Source: Deltaproteobacteria bacterium
Lineage (GTDB): Bacteria; Desulfobacterota; DSM-4660; Desulfatiglandales; HGW-15
Direction: 5' to 3'
Assembly (NCBI GenBank): GCA_019310525.1
Contig: JAFDEE010000012.1
Location: forward strand, 1 to 64,000
DNA: 64,000 nucleotides
This document shows positions 36,199 through 42,919 of the stretch, piece after piece (positions within the stretch are counted from its first letter, which is position 1; every line of letters starts with the position of its first letter). The translations under genes and the position numbers were made by a program. The notes beneath the pieces were generated by a model. That model was given only the letters and a program-made list of their open reading frames with translations, did not search any database and was not told where the DNA came from.

Positions 36199-36522
36199 TT
36201 ATCCGCCCCTGGTCTCCTCGGTCAACCATTTCAGATAATCCGGATTGCCCCTCACGATGGGAAGGGCAAGGATCTCCGGCACTTCATAGGAATGGATATT
36301 GCGGACGGTCTCCTCCAGGTCGTCGTAAAGGTCTTCTCTTGTCTTCAGCAGGCAGAGCCATTCCTCCGAGCTTTCAATGTTTCCCCGCCACCAGTACGTG
36401 CTCCTGACGGGGCCGATGATCTGCACACAGGCGGCAAGCCTCTCCTCCAGAAGACGCCCGGCGATCCGCTCAGCCTCCTCTCTCTTCTCAACCGTCACGA
36501 ATACTTGCAGATACCCGCTCAT
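36199..36522 (-). CDS. cutA: Divalent cation tolerance protein CutA
   Basis: 107 residues from the ATG at 36522, preceded by GGGGAGG; the frame opens earlier but within the preceding gene's tail region. Trimeric PII-like fold. LAACVQIIGPVRSTYWWRG, LCLLKTR and SYEVPEILALPI are the family marks. The physiological role is debated (copper or other metal tolerance). Follows the giant gene by 31 bp. Confidence 0.93.
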   Translation of the reverse strand: MSGYLQVFVTVEKREEAERIAGRLLEERLAACVQIIGPVRSTYWWRGNIESSEEWLCLLKTREDLYDDLEETVRNIHSYEVPEILALPIVRGNPDYLKWLTEETRGG

Positions 36523-36553: not shown

Positions 36554-39500
36554 TCACCCTCCACATCCTCCACACTTGATGCGGGTCATTGTCTCATCGA
36601 ATCTCCTGGCCACCAAGTTCTCAAATTCCTTCCCGGAATACAGGCGGTTCTTCTGAAGGTACCACTTGATACTTTCCCAGTAGTCCAGAAGTTCCTGCTC
36701 ATCCGTTATCCGATTCAAGATCTCTTCGATTTCCTCCAGTTTTTCCCGCCGCAGGTGATCCTTACGCAACTCAAACAGATCGTTCAAGCGGTGCCTCTGC
36801 TCATCGGAGAACCCAATCTCCAATGCCCGGTCCATCAGATCGTTGTACAGGCCGGTGATCTCCTCGAAATCTTCGATGAAGGACATCTTGATCTTGACCT
36901 GGTCGATCATGAGATCGGTGATCTCCTTCATCCGCTCCTCAAAGGCCTTTTCCAGTTGCTGTTCATAGTCTTCGGTATGGAAAGGAACCTTTCTGAGGGA
37001 ACGAAGACTGTAGTGGTAGTAATTCTTCAACTGGTCAAGGTCCGTAACGGTCCTCATATAGGCGATCTTTTTGGAGATGTTGACCTTGTCGGAAAAATCC
37101 ACCGAAAGGACCTTCCGAGACTTGTCCAGCCGGAGCAACATCCCGGTCCTTGCCTTGAAAAATTGGTTTAAGTAAGTATCACTCTTCCAAAGCTGCTCGG
37201 CGGATATTTTGTTCAAGGCGTCATTGACCGCCTCATAGCGCTTTTCAATCTGATCGCCAAGGGCCAAGAAATTGAGACAAACGGGCCTCCCTTCCCCTTG
37301 CTCAAAGGACCGAGCCCCCAGGATAGCGAGAAAAAGGAGCTTGATGATGTTCGCGTAGTTCAGATAGGTGCTGACATGTTCAAAACCGTATATCCGGACC
37401 TCGTCCCGCACCAGGCGGTGCAGGATATAATGACGGGCATCCTCGGGGAGGACCCGAAAGCTGTTGTAAATACGAAGGGCCTCGAAGAGTTCCTTTTCAA
37501 AGGAGGCATAGCCGATACCGTAATAGCTCCTTTTCTTGTAAATGTACTTGAGGGGAACCTTTACGAGTAGATCCGCCATCTCGGGGAACTCAACGTGCCG
37601 GATCCCCCGAAGTCTCAATATCCTTTCCAGGGCGTAGATCATCTTCCCGGACTCGACATACTGCTCTTCATCTTCTTTGCGCCACTCAAAGGACTCGAAA
37701 TAATGGGCGGGAGAAACGCCGTCAGGGAGACCGTCTCTGCGATAGGCCTCCAGGGCGCAATAGATGTGACCCTTTGCCGCGTAAATCTCCCTCAGGTGGG
37801 CCTCCGGTGTGGTCTTACCCTCAAGGATCCTATGGCACAAGGTTCGATATTGAAAGATGCGCCTGGCCAAGTCCTCCAGGATCAGGTCCTCCCTCATGGA
37901 AGAGAACATGGTAAAGGAACTGACGAAAAACGCATCGAAGACATCCTTGTCTCCCCAGTCGAGGGCGTCCTGAATGGCAAAGAGGGAATACTCTCCCCGT
38001 ATCATATGATGGAGAAGATCGTGGTTTTTCACCAGATAAATCAGGTAGTCTGCCGCCTCTTTTCCCATCCCGTATCGTTGCGGGATCTTTTCCCTTTCTA
38101 AAAAGAGGGCCCCGGCCTGGGCATGGTCCGCGGGATGGATTTGGTCCTGGTATTTTTCCCGTAACTCGGGAATCAAGCCGATGTCCCTAAACAGGAAAGA
38201 CTTGAGCAGCGCATCGAAGAGGGGAGGAATTTCCCTGATCCGGCTTACGATCTTCTCAAGGGTCTCGATCTGGAATTCGTTCAGGCCGACGATTCCTGCG
38301 GCCAGGGGACCGAACTCCCTCTGGGCCAATTTATGCAGGCTTTCCGTGTCCTGGAAGCTTCCCCTGTCTTTACGAATGAGGGCCTGGAGTCTCCTCGTGC
38401 TGCCCAGGATGTGCCCTATCAAGGATGATTTAAGATAACCCTTTACTGGCAACCGGATATCCCTCAGCGCCATGAATTCAGGAAGCACGAAGTGGAGGAT
38501 GGAAGGGGCATGCCGGAAGAGCAGGATCAAGTCAGAGTAGATATGGTCCGGCTGGAAAATCACTCCGGTGAAGTGTTCCTTCAGGGCCTCCCTCAACTTC
38601 CCGGCATCCTCGGCCCATTTCCTCTGCCTTTCCGGCAATCTGAACCCCTCGTCCTCCTGGGCCACAAGCCTTAGGTGACTCTGATAGAAACTTTCCAGTC
38701 TGGCGAAGAGGCGCTCCATCTGCTTGAGATCCTCGGTGGGGATCTCCGATATCTTCCGGCCGAGGGATCTATTGATCAAGCGATCTAGCTCATCGATGTT
38801 TTCATCCAGGTCGATGTAATCGACATCCAGGGCCTGGGTCTTCTGGTTGACCTTCAACTGGAAACCGGTCCCCACGATGAAAGCCGTATGATTTTCATAG
38901 AGTTGGTCGCTCAGGCGCTGAAGGGTGGGGAAATCGAGGTATTTGACCTTGACGGCGTGGGTTTCCTCCTCGACCCGCCGCAGATAATGGCCGATTTCTT
39001 CTGGTTCCACATTTCCCAATACATTGTTGAAGTTGACGATCTCGCTGCGGACCACGTTGGCGGTTATCCACAGAAGAAGAAAGACGAGCCGGCTGTTGAT
39101 CTTTTCGAAGAGGTGAACCGTACCATGAAACTCCAGGTTCAGCAGCTTGCGGTAAAAAATGGAGAAACGGAGGGGATCCTCCTGGTAATACAACTCCTCG
39201 AATCGATCAATGATGGCAAGCAGATCGATGACACTCTCGATCTGTTTCAGTTTTTCAACATCGTAGTCGGCCAGGGCCTCCTTTTCCATCCGCCCCTTGC
39301 TGCGGAGCTCGGACCAGGTGTCAAGGAACTGGAAGAGGTTCATCATCTTGAGCAACTTTCGAATAACCTTGCTCCGGATCCCGCCTCCTGCGCTCATTTG
39401 CTCGTCCAACAGCCGATCCCAATCCATCTCCCGATTGGTGACAACCTTGACCATCGACTCGTACAGGTCGAATAGCTCCGCCAGTTCTTCCTGATTCAGG

Positions 39501-41269
39501 TCGGATTGTTTGGAAGCCGCGGTTTCCGCCATGCTCATGAGACGGCAAAAACGAAGCAGGTTCAGGGCCTGGAGGGGGGGCTGGCTTCTGGCAAGGTCGG
39601 ATACAGCCTTCAAAGTCCTCTCGTTCATTTTCCCCGAAAGGATCCGGCCCATGGGGGTGTGGCCTACGACGATGAGGAAAAGCTCTCTCAATTCCCCAGG
39701 GGTGAATCCGAAAAGGGACAGCACTTCGAGGTGCTTCAGCAAGGGGGTCCTGGGTCCCTCTATGTTGTCCGGATTGAGATATCCCTTGATCCGCTGAAGG
39801 CGATTGACCTTGGACATCAACCGCAGCACATCGTTCAGGGCGGGGTACCGTTTTTTCTTGTTTTCCAGGGGTTCTTTCAACCTCTCAAAAAAAAGCCCCG
39901 GCAGGGAAGAATGATCCCCGCTCCTGATCCTTTTCAAGACCGTGAGGGTCCGGACGGCATAATCGAAGGTGTCCCGATAATCGGAAAGGAGGGCAAGGGG
40001 ACAGCCGCTCAACTGGGATTCCCGCACCTCCTGGGTCAACTTGCTCAATGTGGTAGCCAGGGGCTTTTTCTGGCCCAGGTATATCAGCATGTAGCCGGGG
40101 GTATACCCCGTAACCGTAAAACGCCGGCTCCACTCCTCCCGGATGGAGTCCGGGAGGAGTGGTTTAAGGAAAATTTTATCGAAATAGTTAGACAGGACCT
40201 TCGCCCAGGTCTTGTCCTGGTCATAGGCGAAATCATCTTCTAGGTGAAGGTTCAGGTAGGGGAGATCATTGATTTCCTGGAATGATATCTCTTCAGGGCT
40301 CCGCCCTCCGAGAAGCTTGTCCCATATCTCTTTTTCCACGTAAGGGGGGTTCAGGAAACTCTGAAAATCATACACATTGACCTGAAGAGGGCCTTCTCCA
40401 GCCTGGTATTTCTTTTTCGTCTTGAAAAGGTGGGTGAAGAGCAGAAAGTTCTTCATTTCCTGCTCGGTCCGAAAGGCAACCTCAACAACCTGGTTCGTTT
40501 TCAGGGTGAAACGATTGGCGACGATGAAGATCTCTCCATCGGGCTTCAACAGACCGTATATCTTTCCCAGCATGTAGTAGGCATAGTCCTCCAGGCGCCT
40601 CTTGGTCAGGGTTCCCTCATAGCGGGGAATATACTTTTCCATAAAGAGCACCTGGTAGATATCCTTCGGCAGGATGACCAGGTCCAGGGAAGTTCGGGTG
40701 GATCTCAGTTTCTCAAAGGAGTCGAATACGATGAATTGGTGTTCTTTGAATCGGAGTGAGAGATCGTTCACTATGAGATCATCAGCGTGGGTCAGTATGC
40801 CTATCTTATGACTCTCCTTGAGATATTTCGTGCGATGAAATCGGATGATCTTGCTGATCTCATCCGTCTTGCTCTTGATGTTGCTGAGAGAAGAGGAAAC
40901 CAGGTGAAGGGGGATCAGGTAATAGGGTTTTCCCTGCCGGGAGAACCTCTTCAATAGGCCGATACTCCGGTAGATCCGGTTGATTTCCCGGTAATGTTTG
41001 CGGATTTGAGTCGGATCCTGGAAATCGATGGACTGAATGAGATCTATCTCTTTGGGTCTCAACCTGTCATAGACCTCAAAAAACCCGAACCCGTAGGCAT
41101 TCCCTCCAAAACGACTGGGAATCTGTGAAGGATGCTTGTGGGCGGCAATGGTCCCGGCAGGGATATCGGAAGGCTCGATCCCCAGGGCTTCGAATTCTTC
41201 GGCCTTTATGAAGTCGAAGGAATCCGCAACCCAAAAAGCTTCCTGTGGCAGCAAATCCTTGGTTGCCAT
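36554..41269 (-). CDS. Very large protein of unknown function with GlnD-type HD-like region
   Basis: 1571 residues. I do not recognise the whole protein. Residues about 150-270 look like a degenerate Rossmann methyltransferase core: KIGILTHADDLIV, LDLVILPKDIY, then LLKPDGEIFIVANRF, but without a clear SAM-binding glycine motif. Residues about 1025-1140 resemble the HD region of the uridylyltransferase GlnD: FRDIGLIP, ADHAQAGALFLE (1048 on) and LVKNHDLLHH (1080 on). The first metal-ligand His-Asp pair reads Arg-Asp, so a classical phosphohydrolase site is incomplete. The remainder is Leu/Glu/Arg-rich helical with coiled-coil stretches near the C-terminus, ending in CGGCGG. No signal peptide or membrane helix, so cytosolic. 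cutA follows. Confidence 0.8.
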   Translation of the reverse strand: MATKDLLPQEAFWVADSFDFIKAEEFEALGIEPSDIPAGTIAAHKHPSQIPSRFGGNAYGFGFFEVYDRLRPKEIDLIQSIDFQDPTQIRKHYREINRIYRSIGLLKRFSRQGKPYYLIPLHLVSSSLSNIKSKTDEISKIIRFHRTKYLKESHKIGILTHADDLIVNDLSLRFKEHQFIVFDSFEKLRSTRTSLDLVILPKDIYQVLFMEKYIPRYEGTLTKRRLEDYAYYMLGKIYGLLKPDGEIFIVANRFTLKTNQVVEVAFRTEQEMKNFLLFTHLFKTKKKYQAGEGPLQVNVYDFQSFLNPPYVEKEIWDKLLGGRSPEEISFQEINDLPYLNLHLEDDFAYDQDKTWAKVLSNYFDKIFLKPLLPDSIREEWSRRFTVTGYTPGYMLIYLGQKKPLATTLSKLTQEVRESQLSGCPLALLSDYRDTFDYAVRTLTVLKRIRSGDHSSLPGLFFERLKEPLENKKKRYPALNDVLRLMSKVNRLQRIKGYLNPDNIEGPRTPLLKHLEVLSLFGFTPGELRELFLIVVGHTPMGRILSGKMNERTLKAVSDLARSQPPLQALNLLRFCRLMSMAETAASKQSDLNQEELAELFDLYESMVKVVTNREMDWDRLLDEQMSAGGGIRSKVIRKLLKMMNLFQFLDTWSELRSKGRMEKEALADYDVEKLKQIESVIDLLAIIDRFEELYYQEDPLRFSIFYRKLLNLEFHGTVHLFEKINSRLVFLLLWITANVVRSEIVNFNNVLGNVEPEEIGHYLRRVEEETHAVKVKYLDFPTLQRLSDQLYENHTAFIVGTGFQLKVNQKTQALDVDYIDLDENIDELDRLINRSLGRKISEIPTEDLKQMERLFARLESFYQSHLRLVAQEDEGFRLPERQRKWAEDAGKLREALKEHFTGVIFQPDHIYSDLILLFRHAPSILHFVLPEFMALRDIRLPVKGYLKSSLIGHILGSTRRLQALIRKDRGSFQDTESLHKLAQREFGPLAAGIVGLNEFQIETLEKIVSRIREIPPLFDALLKSFLFRDIGLIPELREKYQDQIHPADHAQAGALFLEREKIPQRYGMGKEAADYLIYLVKNHDLLHHMIRGEYSLFAIQDALDWGDKDVFDAFFVSSFTMFSSMREDLILEDLARRIFQYRTLCHRILEGKTTPEAHLREIYAAKGHIYCALEAYRRDGLPDGVSPAHYFESFEWRKEDEEQYVESGKMIYALERILRLRGIRHVEFPEMADLLVKVPLKYIYKKRSYYGIGYASFEKELFEALRIYNSFRVLPEDARHYILHRLVRDEVRIYGFEHVSTYLNYANIIKLLFLAILGARSFEQGEGRPVCLNFLALGDQIEKRYEAVNDALNKISAEQLWKSDTYLNQFFKARTGMLLRLDKSRKVLSVDFSDKVNISKKIAYMRTVTDLDQLKNYYHYSLRSLRKVPFHTEDYEQQLEKAFEERMKEITDLMIDQVKIKMSFIEDFEEITGLYNDLMDRALEIGFSDEQRHRLNDLFELRKDHLRREKLEEIEEILNRITDEQELLDYWESIKWYLQKNRLYSGKEFENLVARRFDETMTRIKCGGCGG

Positions 41270-41392: not shown

Positions 41393-42919
41393 TCATTGCT
41401 CACCGCCATAACGCTTCTTGACCTCGGCCCGGTCGATGGAACCATCCTTCAGGAGGGGAAGTTCCCTTACGAATTCCACGTAGGAAGGTTTCTTGTAACG
41501 GGCTATCCGCTCTCCGACGAAATCGATGAGTTCCTGAGCATCAAGTCGCTCCCCCTCCCTGAGCTGGCACACGGCCTTGATACCTTCCTTCCATTTTGGA
41601 TCCGGGACCCCGAAAACAACGGTCTTTTCCACGGCGGGATGCTGCAGGATCACCTTCTCCACCTCGGCCGGGTAAACGTTCTCTCCTCCCGGCTTGATCA
41701 GTTCCTTCTCCGCGCTCCTCCCCGCATACCAGAGATACCCCTCGTCGTCGAAACGTCCCAGATCACCGGTGTGGTGCCACCCTTCCCGAAAGGTGTGGGT
41801 TGTCTCTTCGGGCAGTCCCCAATACCCCTTGAATACCATGGGGCCTTTTACCGTTATCTCGCCCACCTCGCCCCGGGCCACGGGACGATCATATTCATCC
41901 ACCAGCCTGACATCGATCATGGGGAGCATCCGCCCGGCGGCCCCGGGCCTCTCGTCGTAAGGACCGAAAGAGACCAGGCAGGATGTCTCTGTTTGTCCGT
42001 ACATGGAATAAAAGGTTCCTTCACTTGCTTTCTGGTACCTTTCTATGGTTTCGGGGGTTTCGATCCCCGTCACAGCCCGCAACGGGCTGATGTCAACTCC
42101 TTTCTTTTCCCCCTCGTCCAGGAGTGAGGAGAGGATCGGGGTAAAAACCATGGTGAAAGACGCCTCTTTCTCCCTGATGATATCGACGGCCCGGACCGCG
42201 TCGAATCCCTTCATTTGAACGTTCAGGGCTCCCGCGTGGAAGGCGGCGGTGGTCATGAACAATCCCCCCACGTGGAAAAAGGGCAAAAAATTAAGGTGGA
42301 CATCCTTCGACGTCACATTCATCAGGTAGTCAAAATGCATATCGGCCCAAAGCAAATTGGCGTGGCTCAAGAGAGCGCCCCGCGGTTTTCCGGCAACCGC
42401 CGCCGTATGAATAATGACCAGCCCGTCTTCCGCGCCCACATCCGGTGGGGAAAAATCGCCGCTCTTTTCCATCAAACTGGAAAAAGGAGGATATTGTCCT
42501 CCTTCGGTGCGTTCCAGGCTGAAACAGGATTTCACAAAAGGCAAATTTTCACGGAGATCTCCGATGACCGCCTGGTTCTCGTCGTCAACGAATACCACGA
42601 CAGGCTTGCAATTCTCGAGGTTATAACGGACCTCCTCCTTGGACAACCTCCAACTGATGGGAACCAGGATCGCCCCAAGAGCGGCCGTGGCCCCTAAAAG
42701 GAGAAAATACTCCAGGCTGTTCTTGGCCAGCACGCCCACCCTGTCCCCTTTTTTAACATCTTTTTCCCGGAGCCCGAGGGCCAAACGCTCGACCTGTTCC
42801 AGGTATTCTGAAAAGGTCAGGGAACGCTCATCCTCCACCCCGTACCAGGCTTCCTTGTCTCCGAAAGTCACCGCATTGCGTTTGATTAGATCATAAAAGG
42901 TAAAATCATAAATTCCCAT
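41393..42919 (-). CDS. AMP-forming acyl-CoA ligase family protein lacking the A10 lysine
   Basis: 508 residues of the adenylate-forming superfamily. The A5 segment SMYGQTETS, the A7/A8 region HHTGDLGRFDDEGYLWYAGR and the GGENVYPAEVE motif are good. Two key places are odd: the phosphate loop reads IIHTAAVAGKPRGALLSH rather than T-S/T-GTTG-PKG, and the C-terminal motif reads LPLLKDGSIDR, where position 494 is serine instead of the lysine used for adenylation. It could therefore be a thioesterification-only or altered enzyme. Acid substrate unknown; the family would make fatty or aromatic acyl-CoA. Confidence 0.85.
   Translation of the reverse strand: MGIYDFTFYDLIKRNAVTFGDKEAWYGVEDERSLTFSEYLEQVERLALGLREKDVKKGDRVGVLAKNSLEYFLLLGATAALGAILVPISWRLSKEEVRYNLENCKPVVVFVDDENQAVIGDLRENLPFVKSCFSLERTEGGQYPPFSSLMEKSGDFSPPDVGAEDGLVIIHTAAVAGKPRGALLSHANLLWADMHFDYLMNVTSKDVHLNFLPFFHVGGLFMTTAAFHAGALNVQMKGFDAVRAVDIIREKEASFTMVFTPILSSLLDEGEKKGVDISPLRAVTGIETPETIERYQKASEGTFYSMYGQTETSCLVSFGPYDERPGAAGRMLPMIDVRLVDEYDRPVARGEVGEITVKGPMVFKGYWGLPEETTHTFREGWHHTGDLGRFDDEGYLWYAGRSAEKELIKPGGENVYPAEVEKVILQHPAVEKTVVFGVPDPKWKEGIKAVCQLREGERLDAQELIDFVGERIARYKKPSYVEFVRELPLLKDGSIDRAEVKKRYGGEQ

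Follow-up and report, generated by a model that had tools for sequence, protein, structure and literature searches.

The window (the whole stretch of 64,000 nucleotides that was analysed) encodes a protein of 1571 residues that is best explained, with a probability of roughly one half, as a large cytosolic, non-catalytic regulator or scaffold built from dead enzyme folds. Its role is probably exerted by binding of a ligand, an RNA or a partner and not by chemistry. This reading was adopted because the histidine of the HD doublet, the last HD aspartate and the glycine-rich SAM loop are all missing, yet the sequence is strongly conserved. A regulatory or scaffold protein had already been suggested in a preliminary description, which fits the loss of catalytic residues; the architecture is well supported, and it is the function itself that we infer. 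The features are listed below, where the codon of residue n starts at 41269-3(n-1).

36554..41269, minus strand: open reading frame of 1571 amino acids, with the ATG at 41269 and the stop codon at 36554-36556.
41015..41221, minus strand: N-terminal segment, residues 17-85, with the signature LGIxPxDIPxGT..HPS..SRFGGNAYGFGxFE.
40814..41014, minus strand: winged-helix-like basic segment, residues 86-152, with strands 107-109 and 115-120 and the motif RFSSxGKPYYLIP (secondary structure of the model).
40010..40813, minus strand: degenerate class I methyltransferase-like domain, residues 153-420 (Foldseek and model).
39350..39997, minus strand: pseudo-HD module 1, residues 425-640 (HMM homology to module 2; conserved H537, R542, G546, K547, R573 and E582).
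38591..39349, minus strand: helical region with a beta hairpin after module 1, residues 641-893 (models; INFNP and FIxGTGFxL..LDVDYID; repeat of 1235-1571).
37775..38590, minus strand: pseudo-HD module 2 of the GlnD type, residues 894-1165 (FRDIG at 1027, H1049, H1083, H1088; hhalign, PDB sequence and fold matches).
36860..37774, minus strand: helical region with a beta hairpin after module 2, residues 1166-1470 (model; second copy of the region that follows module 1).
36557..36859, minus strand: C-terminal helices, residues 1471-1571 (model), ending in CGGCGG.

The uninterrupted frame of about 4.7 kb in the preliminary description is open over all 1571 codons and lies on the minus strand, which had not been stated. 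Its coding status is certain, as homologues were found in 19 of 21 relatives from its own family and order and, across the phylum, in 32 of the 296 genomes sampled. No significant match to the protein was found in Pfam, NCBIfam, PADLOC or PHROGs, and a Pfam search with 13 full members and 57 members cut to two regions also gave nothing significant; the N-terminal region of the cut members showed scattered weak matches to the methyltransferase clan in single members. A BirA match with an E-value of 0.14 was dismissed as noise. The profile of the whole protein found nothing real among PDB sequences, and the A-adding enzyme described below was reached only by the trimmed profile of module 2. The earlier remark that no described protein is known to have this layout therefore held, as no full-length match to any characterised family was found. 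The best reading of these searches is that known folds have been assembled into a new family which none of the searched libraries describes.

Structures were predicted with AlphaFold2 from 72 aligned sequences, with a mean pLDDT of 86 for residues 1-960 and a pLDDT of 87 for residues 620-1571. When the N-terminal model was searched against the PDB with Foldseek, the best 50 matches were all methyltransferases or methyltransferase-like proteins (probability 0.91-1.00, best E-value 1.6e-3). At the position of motif I, the first strand is followed by T160-H-A-D-D164 (THADD), and a conserved glycine is present in no lineage. Model, fold search and column counts thus agree with the Rossmann methyltransferase pattern without the SAM glycine motif that had been noticed from the sequence: the fold of class I SAM methyltransferases is there, and the glycine-rich SAM loop is not. 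The best explanation is that this domain is incapable of the usual mode of SAM binding.

Two features in front of this domain were missed before, the winged-helix-like segment and the glycine-rich N-terminal motif, which is the most conserved part of the whole protein and was kept even in the shortest members. G30, G39, P47, G55, G56, Y59, G60, G62 and E65 are invariant in the 72 sequences, as are several residues at 97-120. The most conserved parts are this motif (HPS..RFGGNAYGFG..E), the winged helix and the charged set of module 1 (H537, R542, K547, E582). The AlphaFold confidence is lowest at the motif (60-73 for residues 41-70), as would be expected of a loop that becomes ordered upon binding, with the caveat that invariant columns give no covariation signal. 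The winged-helix identity of residues 86-152 is suggested by the order of the elements in the model, and the segment carries a mean charge of +8.9 per 100 residues in the 72 members.

For the C-terminal half, the segments quoted in the preliminary description were located at residues 1027-1031 (FRDIG), 1048-1056 (DHAQAGALF) and 1079-1088 (LVKNHDLLHH). They follow the order of the GlnD HD domain, and the replacement of the first histidine by arginine is correct for the sequence of the window; in the family this residue is mostly glutamine. The HD-like region that had been placed at about 1025-1140 was supported by a confident model and by the profile-profile search, and the HD-type domain spans residues 894-1120. 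In hhalign, a GlnD profile built from the same taxonomic order aligned with residues 894-1086 over 139 columns, from the IPEF of GlnD (here LPEF) through the HD region, with a p-value of 3.4e-9, while controls with reversed and shuffled columns gave 0.2-0.5. In the PDB fold search with the C-terminal model, the Aquifex tRNA A-adding enzyme accounted for each of the ten top matches (best E-value 4.4e-4, probability 1.0). As the alignments cover only parts, TM-scores to single PDB entries were low, reaching 0.51 at most (normalised to the target). The sequence profile of residues 890-1165 found the same Aquifex A-adding enzyme or poly(A) polymerase among PDB sequences with an E-value of 1.3e-3, 'lfqdigk' being aligned with 'LFHDIGK'. 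When the module 2 profile was searched against the window's own genome, it matched only its own gene and then, weakly, two GlnD genes (E-values 0.14 and 0.34). The GlnD profile, the Aquifex sequence and fold matches and the GlnD matches in the same genome therefore confirm the HD-like region.

The catalytic residues of this module have largely been lost. At the histidine position of the HD doublet (1028), 71 of the 72 members have a residue other than histidine, namely Gln, Arg, Tyr or Asn; its acidic partner is mostly retained. The final HD aspartate is absent everywhere and is replaced by small or hydrophobic residues. Nearly all of the Syntrophobacterales members sampled retain H998, H1049 and H1083, though without the HD histidine and the last aspartate; the assignment of H998 as the first HD ligand is an alignment judgement made by spacing. 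In Desulfatiglandales, H998 is lost and H1049 mostly lost. Thus, the metal site H...HD...D of HD-superfamily phosphohydrolases is not present, and of the features of GlnD in this region the HD fold was found while the intact doublet and the metal ligands were not. About 30 residues of module 2, including the DH..GA part (around 1047-1050), are deleted in several Desulfarculaceae members (L035, L037-L043).

Judged by sequence homology, residues 425-905 and 906-1571 are a tandem duplication giving two pseudo-HD modules, which is new here and had escaped the preliminary description. In the models, the order of helices and strands from residue 425 recurs after about 990. An HMM of residues 940-1240 matched 425-660 in 67 of the 72 members at E<0.01 (best 9e-10) and in none of the 72 reversed sequences. 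Similarly, the two helical-plus-hairpin regions matched each other in 26 and 23 of the 72 members, compared with 1 and 0 of the reversed ones. Since one reversed control in the hhalign comparison of the two halves scored absurdly (5e-17 over 18 columns), the claim rests on the HMMER searches with their clean reversed controls. The helical region 641-893 was also considered as GlnD_UR and rejected, as the profile comparison was not significant (p=0.18). The protein of the window does end in CGGCGG, but none of the others among the 72 members shares this ending, so it is not a family feature.

In module 1, H537, R542, G546, K547, R573 and E582 are invariant or nearly so. This module has six conserved basic positions, in addition to H537 and E582, whereas module 2 has only one, which suggests that module 1 may retain a ligand pocket and that module 2 may now be structural. 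A Walker-type loop at GRILSGK (541-547) was rejected, as G541 is unconserved and the segment is largely helical. The conserved charges of module 1, together with the three histidines of module 2 that persist in Syntrophobacterales, could also be read as a sign of an enzyme still active with an unusual site, either a methyltransferase-like cleft that uses the N-terminal glycine motif as its cofactor loop or module 1 with H537 and E582. The most conserved part of the protein, GGNAYGFG, does adjoin the methyltransferase-like domain in sequence. However, the doublet histidine and last aspartate are missing almost everywhere, SAM motif I is absent, and the conserved set fits no known catalytic motif. 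An active enzyme is considered improbable, although missing motifs are compatible with a non-canonical activity.

The Aquifex matches bring in another explanation, namely an RNA-binding, probably tRNA-related protein, in which the HD and helical body would hold a tRNA or another structured RNA, much as class II tRNA nucleotidyltransferases do with their body and tail, and the winged helix would form a second contact. Strong fold matches of the C-terminal half were obtained only to the A-adding enzyme, which the sequence profile found as well. Class II enzymes have been reported to bind tRNA through their body and tail domains, which contact its acceptor and T arms (PMC3925840). The winged helix is basic, and the beta subunit of bacterial glycyl-tRNA synthetase (GlyRS) offers a precedent. 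Nevertheless, the protein as a whole, with -0.6 charges per 100 residues, is neutral, and its module 2 is acidic. Furthermore, the head of class II tRNA nucleotidyltransferases or poly(A) polymerases gave no Pfam match, the model of residues 620-1571 contains no beta-sheet head, and the common part is the HD fold itself, which GlnD uses on a protein substrate. This explanation is therefore rated as rather doubtful, slightly ahead of an active enzyme.

The homologues in the same family and order were full-length or split, with one copy per genome and mostly 42-61% identity; those sampled across the phylum were likewise always single, some being split over contigs. With a profile built from the N-terminal 404 residues, the gene was detected in 38 of 395 genomes, again always as a single copy. 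Within Desulfobacterota the gene occurs in Desulfatiglandales, Syntrophobacterales, Desulfarculaceae and one further group, whereas about 90% of the sampled phylum lacks it. Named records with members include Desulfatiglandales (among them strain NaphS2), Syntrophobacteraceae (Desulforhabdus and an uncultured Desulfosoma) and Desulfarculales. It has been retained by the majority of members in several sulphate-reducing and syntrophic orders: it was found in all 13 genomes of family f18, which we take to be Desulfarculaceae, and in 25 of 35 genomes of Syntrophobacterales, the order of Desulforhabdus, where the gaps fall mostly in one genus. In the Syntrophobacteraceae genus g264 (order of G277), 7 of 10 genomes are without the gene while the order mostly retains it. 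Members share 30-60% identity over 1500 residues, and the tree of the 72 members fits the taxonomic groups with the fewest changes possible. Because the gene is single-copy and its tree tracks taxonomy, it has been inherited vertically with occasional loss. Nor does this pattern resemble the variable, island-like occurrence of a known defence-system protein, for which PADLOC gave no match either. A viral origin was rejected, as no relative was found among the viral contigs searched. One member with 53% identity (L063) comes from a contig of 4.5 kb that bears the label Candidatus Aminicenantes; it is likely a binning error. The shortest members, L146 and L147 (genomes G086 and G111), have about 1253 and 1147 residues and are missing some of the middle and of the C-terminus.

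In the window, an AMP-forming acyl-CoA synthetase-like gene (41393-42919, same strand) lies 123 bases upstream of the gene, and a CutA-like gene on the minus strand (about 36199-36522) lies 31 bases downstream and is possibly co-transcribed with it. The GC3 of the gene is similar to that of its neighbours. CutA adjacency is limited to five members, all from the window's own family (the window gene, L046, L052, L055 and L076). According to neighbour names read from the sequences, Desulfatiglandales members are often downstream of a branched-chain-type ABC transporter and acyl-CoA synthetase operon, Syntrophobacteraceae members have VanZ/PgpA/DegP-like genes nearby, one small group is near RadA and MnmG, and another is near a histidine kinase. 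A conserved operon partner was therefore rejected, since no gene is common to the neighbourhoods of all lineages. Gene context gives no function by guilt by association, and the variation of the neighbours between lineages, which points to no partner, counts against the regulator or scaffold reading. Elsewhere in the window's own genome (G000:C20:15576-20999), two differing, intact-looking GlnD genes (L119 and L120) lie head to head, both with GGYGRREL-like and HDIGKG motifs.

The preliminary description had proposed that the protein may sense nitrogen or nucleotide status; in this reading it would work with PII and GlnD. Among the bacterial families tested, GlnD is indeed the closest to module 2, and this resemblance is what the proposal has in its favour. 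GlnD also has ACT domains. It has been described as ubiquitous in proteobacteria, with a nucleotidyltransferase and an active HD domain (PMC4285133). In the present protein, the nucleotidyltransferase domain (GGYGRxEL..DxD) gave no Pfam match, and the N-terminal profile gave p=0.34 against GlnD. No Pfam match was obtained for the two C-terminal ACT domains, and in the model the C-terminal region consists of helices and a single hairpin. There are no adjacent nitrogen genes, and the distribution is unlike that of GlnD: the gene is missing from most of the sampled phylum and occurs in genome G014, which gave no GlnD_UR match at E<=1e-5. Because the working domains of GlnD are missing and the phyletic pattern differs, the nitrogen reading is unsupported and is regarded as very unlikely.

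A non-catalytic regulator or scaffold could work as follows. The N-terminal glycine-rich signature and the basic winged-helix-like segment lead into the methyltransferase-like domain, and the two tandem HD modules of the GlnD or class II A-adding-enzyme type, together with the helical, hairpin-bearing region behind each of them, make up a long helical body. Conservation suggests that H537, R542, K547, R573 and E582 of module 1 may line a pocket in which a phosphate-bearing ligand or the end of an RNA is bound. A partner might be contacted by the N-terminal motif together with the winged helix, and occupancy of the pocket could alter how the ends of the long body are presented to that partner. 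More tentatively, and with less confidence than the general reading, the protein may represent a new bacterial class of pseudoenzyme hub, in which a dead methyltransferase and tandem dead HD modules would form a ligand- or tRNA-responsive scaffold of about 1500 residues in a process not yet described.

The protein is of interest as a large, strongly conserved, single-copy component of anaerobes relevant to sulphur and carbon cycling, and as a case of an HD-type module that has been duplicated and has lost its catalytic residues to varying degrees across a phylum. The N-terminal GGNAYG motif and the H/R/K/E set of module 1 supply residues that can be tested. Should the pocket of module 1 prove to bind RNA or a nucleotide, this module would join the short list of dead HD domains known to be retained as binding modules.

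Four known systems can be compared with this protein. With the HD region of GlnD it has in common the order LPEF/IPEF, HDIGK-like, DH..GA-like and LVxxH, and it differs from GlnD in having neither nucleotidyltransferase nor ACT domains, in the loss of the HD histidine and last aspartate, in its duplication and in its fusion to a methyltransferase-like domain. The class II tRNA A-adding enzyme or poly(A) polymerase of Aquifex aeolicus (3wfo-3wfs) gave the best fold matches of the C-terminal half and the sequence match in the HDIGK region, at 13-15% identity over aligned columns; unlike it, the present protein has no nucleotidyltransferase head, has lost the HD doublet and is duplicated. Residues 153-420 have the fold of class I SAM methyltransferases, especially the N-terminal domain of anamorsin/Dre2 (4m7r), a methyltransferase-like domain in which the glycine-rich SAM element is missing too (PMC3440578); the present protein lacks the Fe-S domain of anamorsin/Dre2 and carries HD modules. 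Finally, the HD domain of the bacterial GlyRS beta subunit, in which the doublet is Ser-Lys for His-Asp and a conserved cavity affects aminoacylation, is a precedent for an HD fold that has lost catalysis but persists as a binding or allosteric cavity (PMC8464048), although the searches with the present protein returned no sequence or fold match to it and there is no aminoacylation context.
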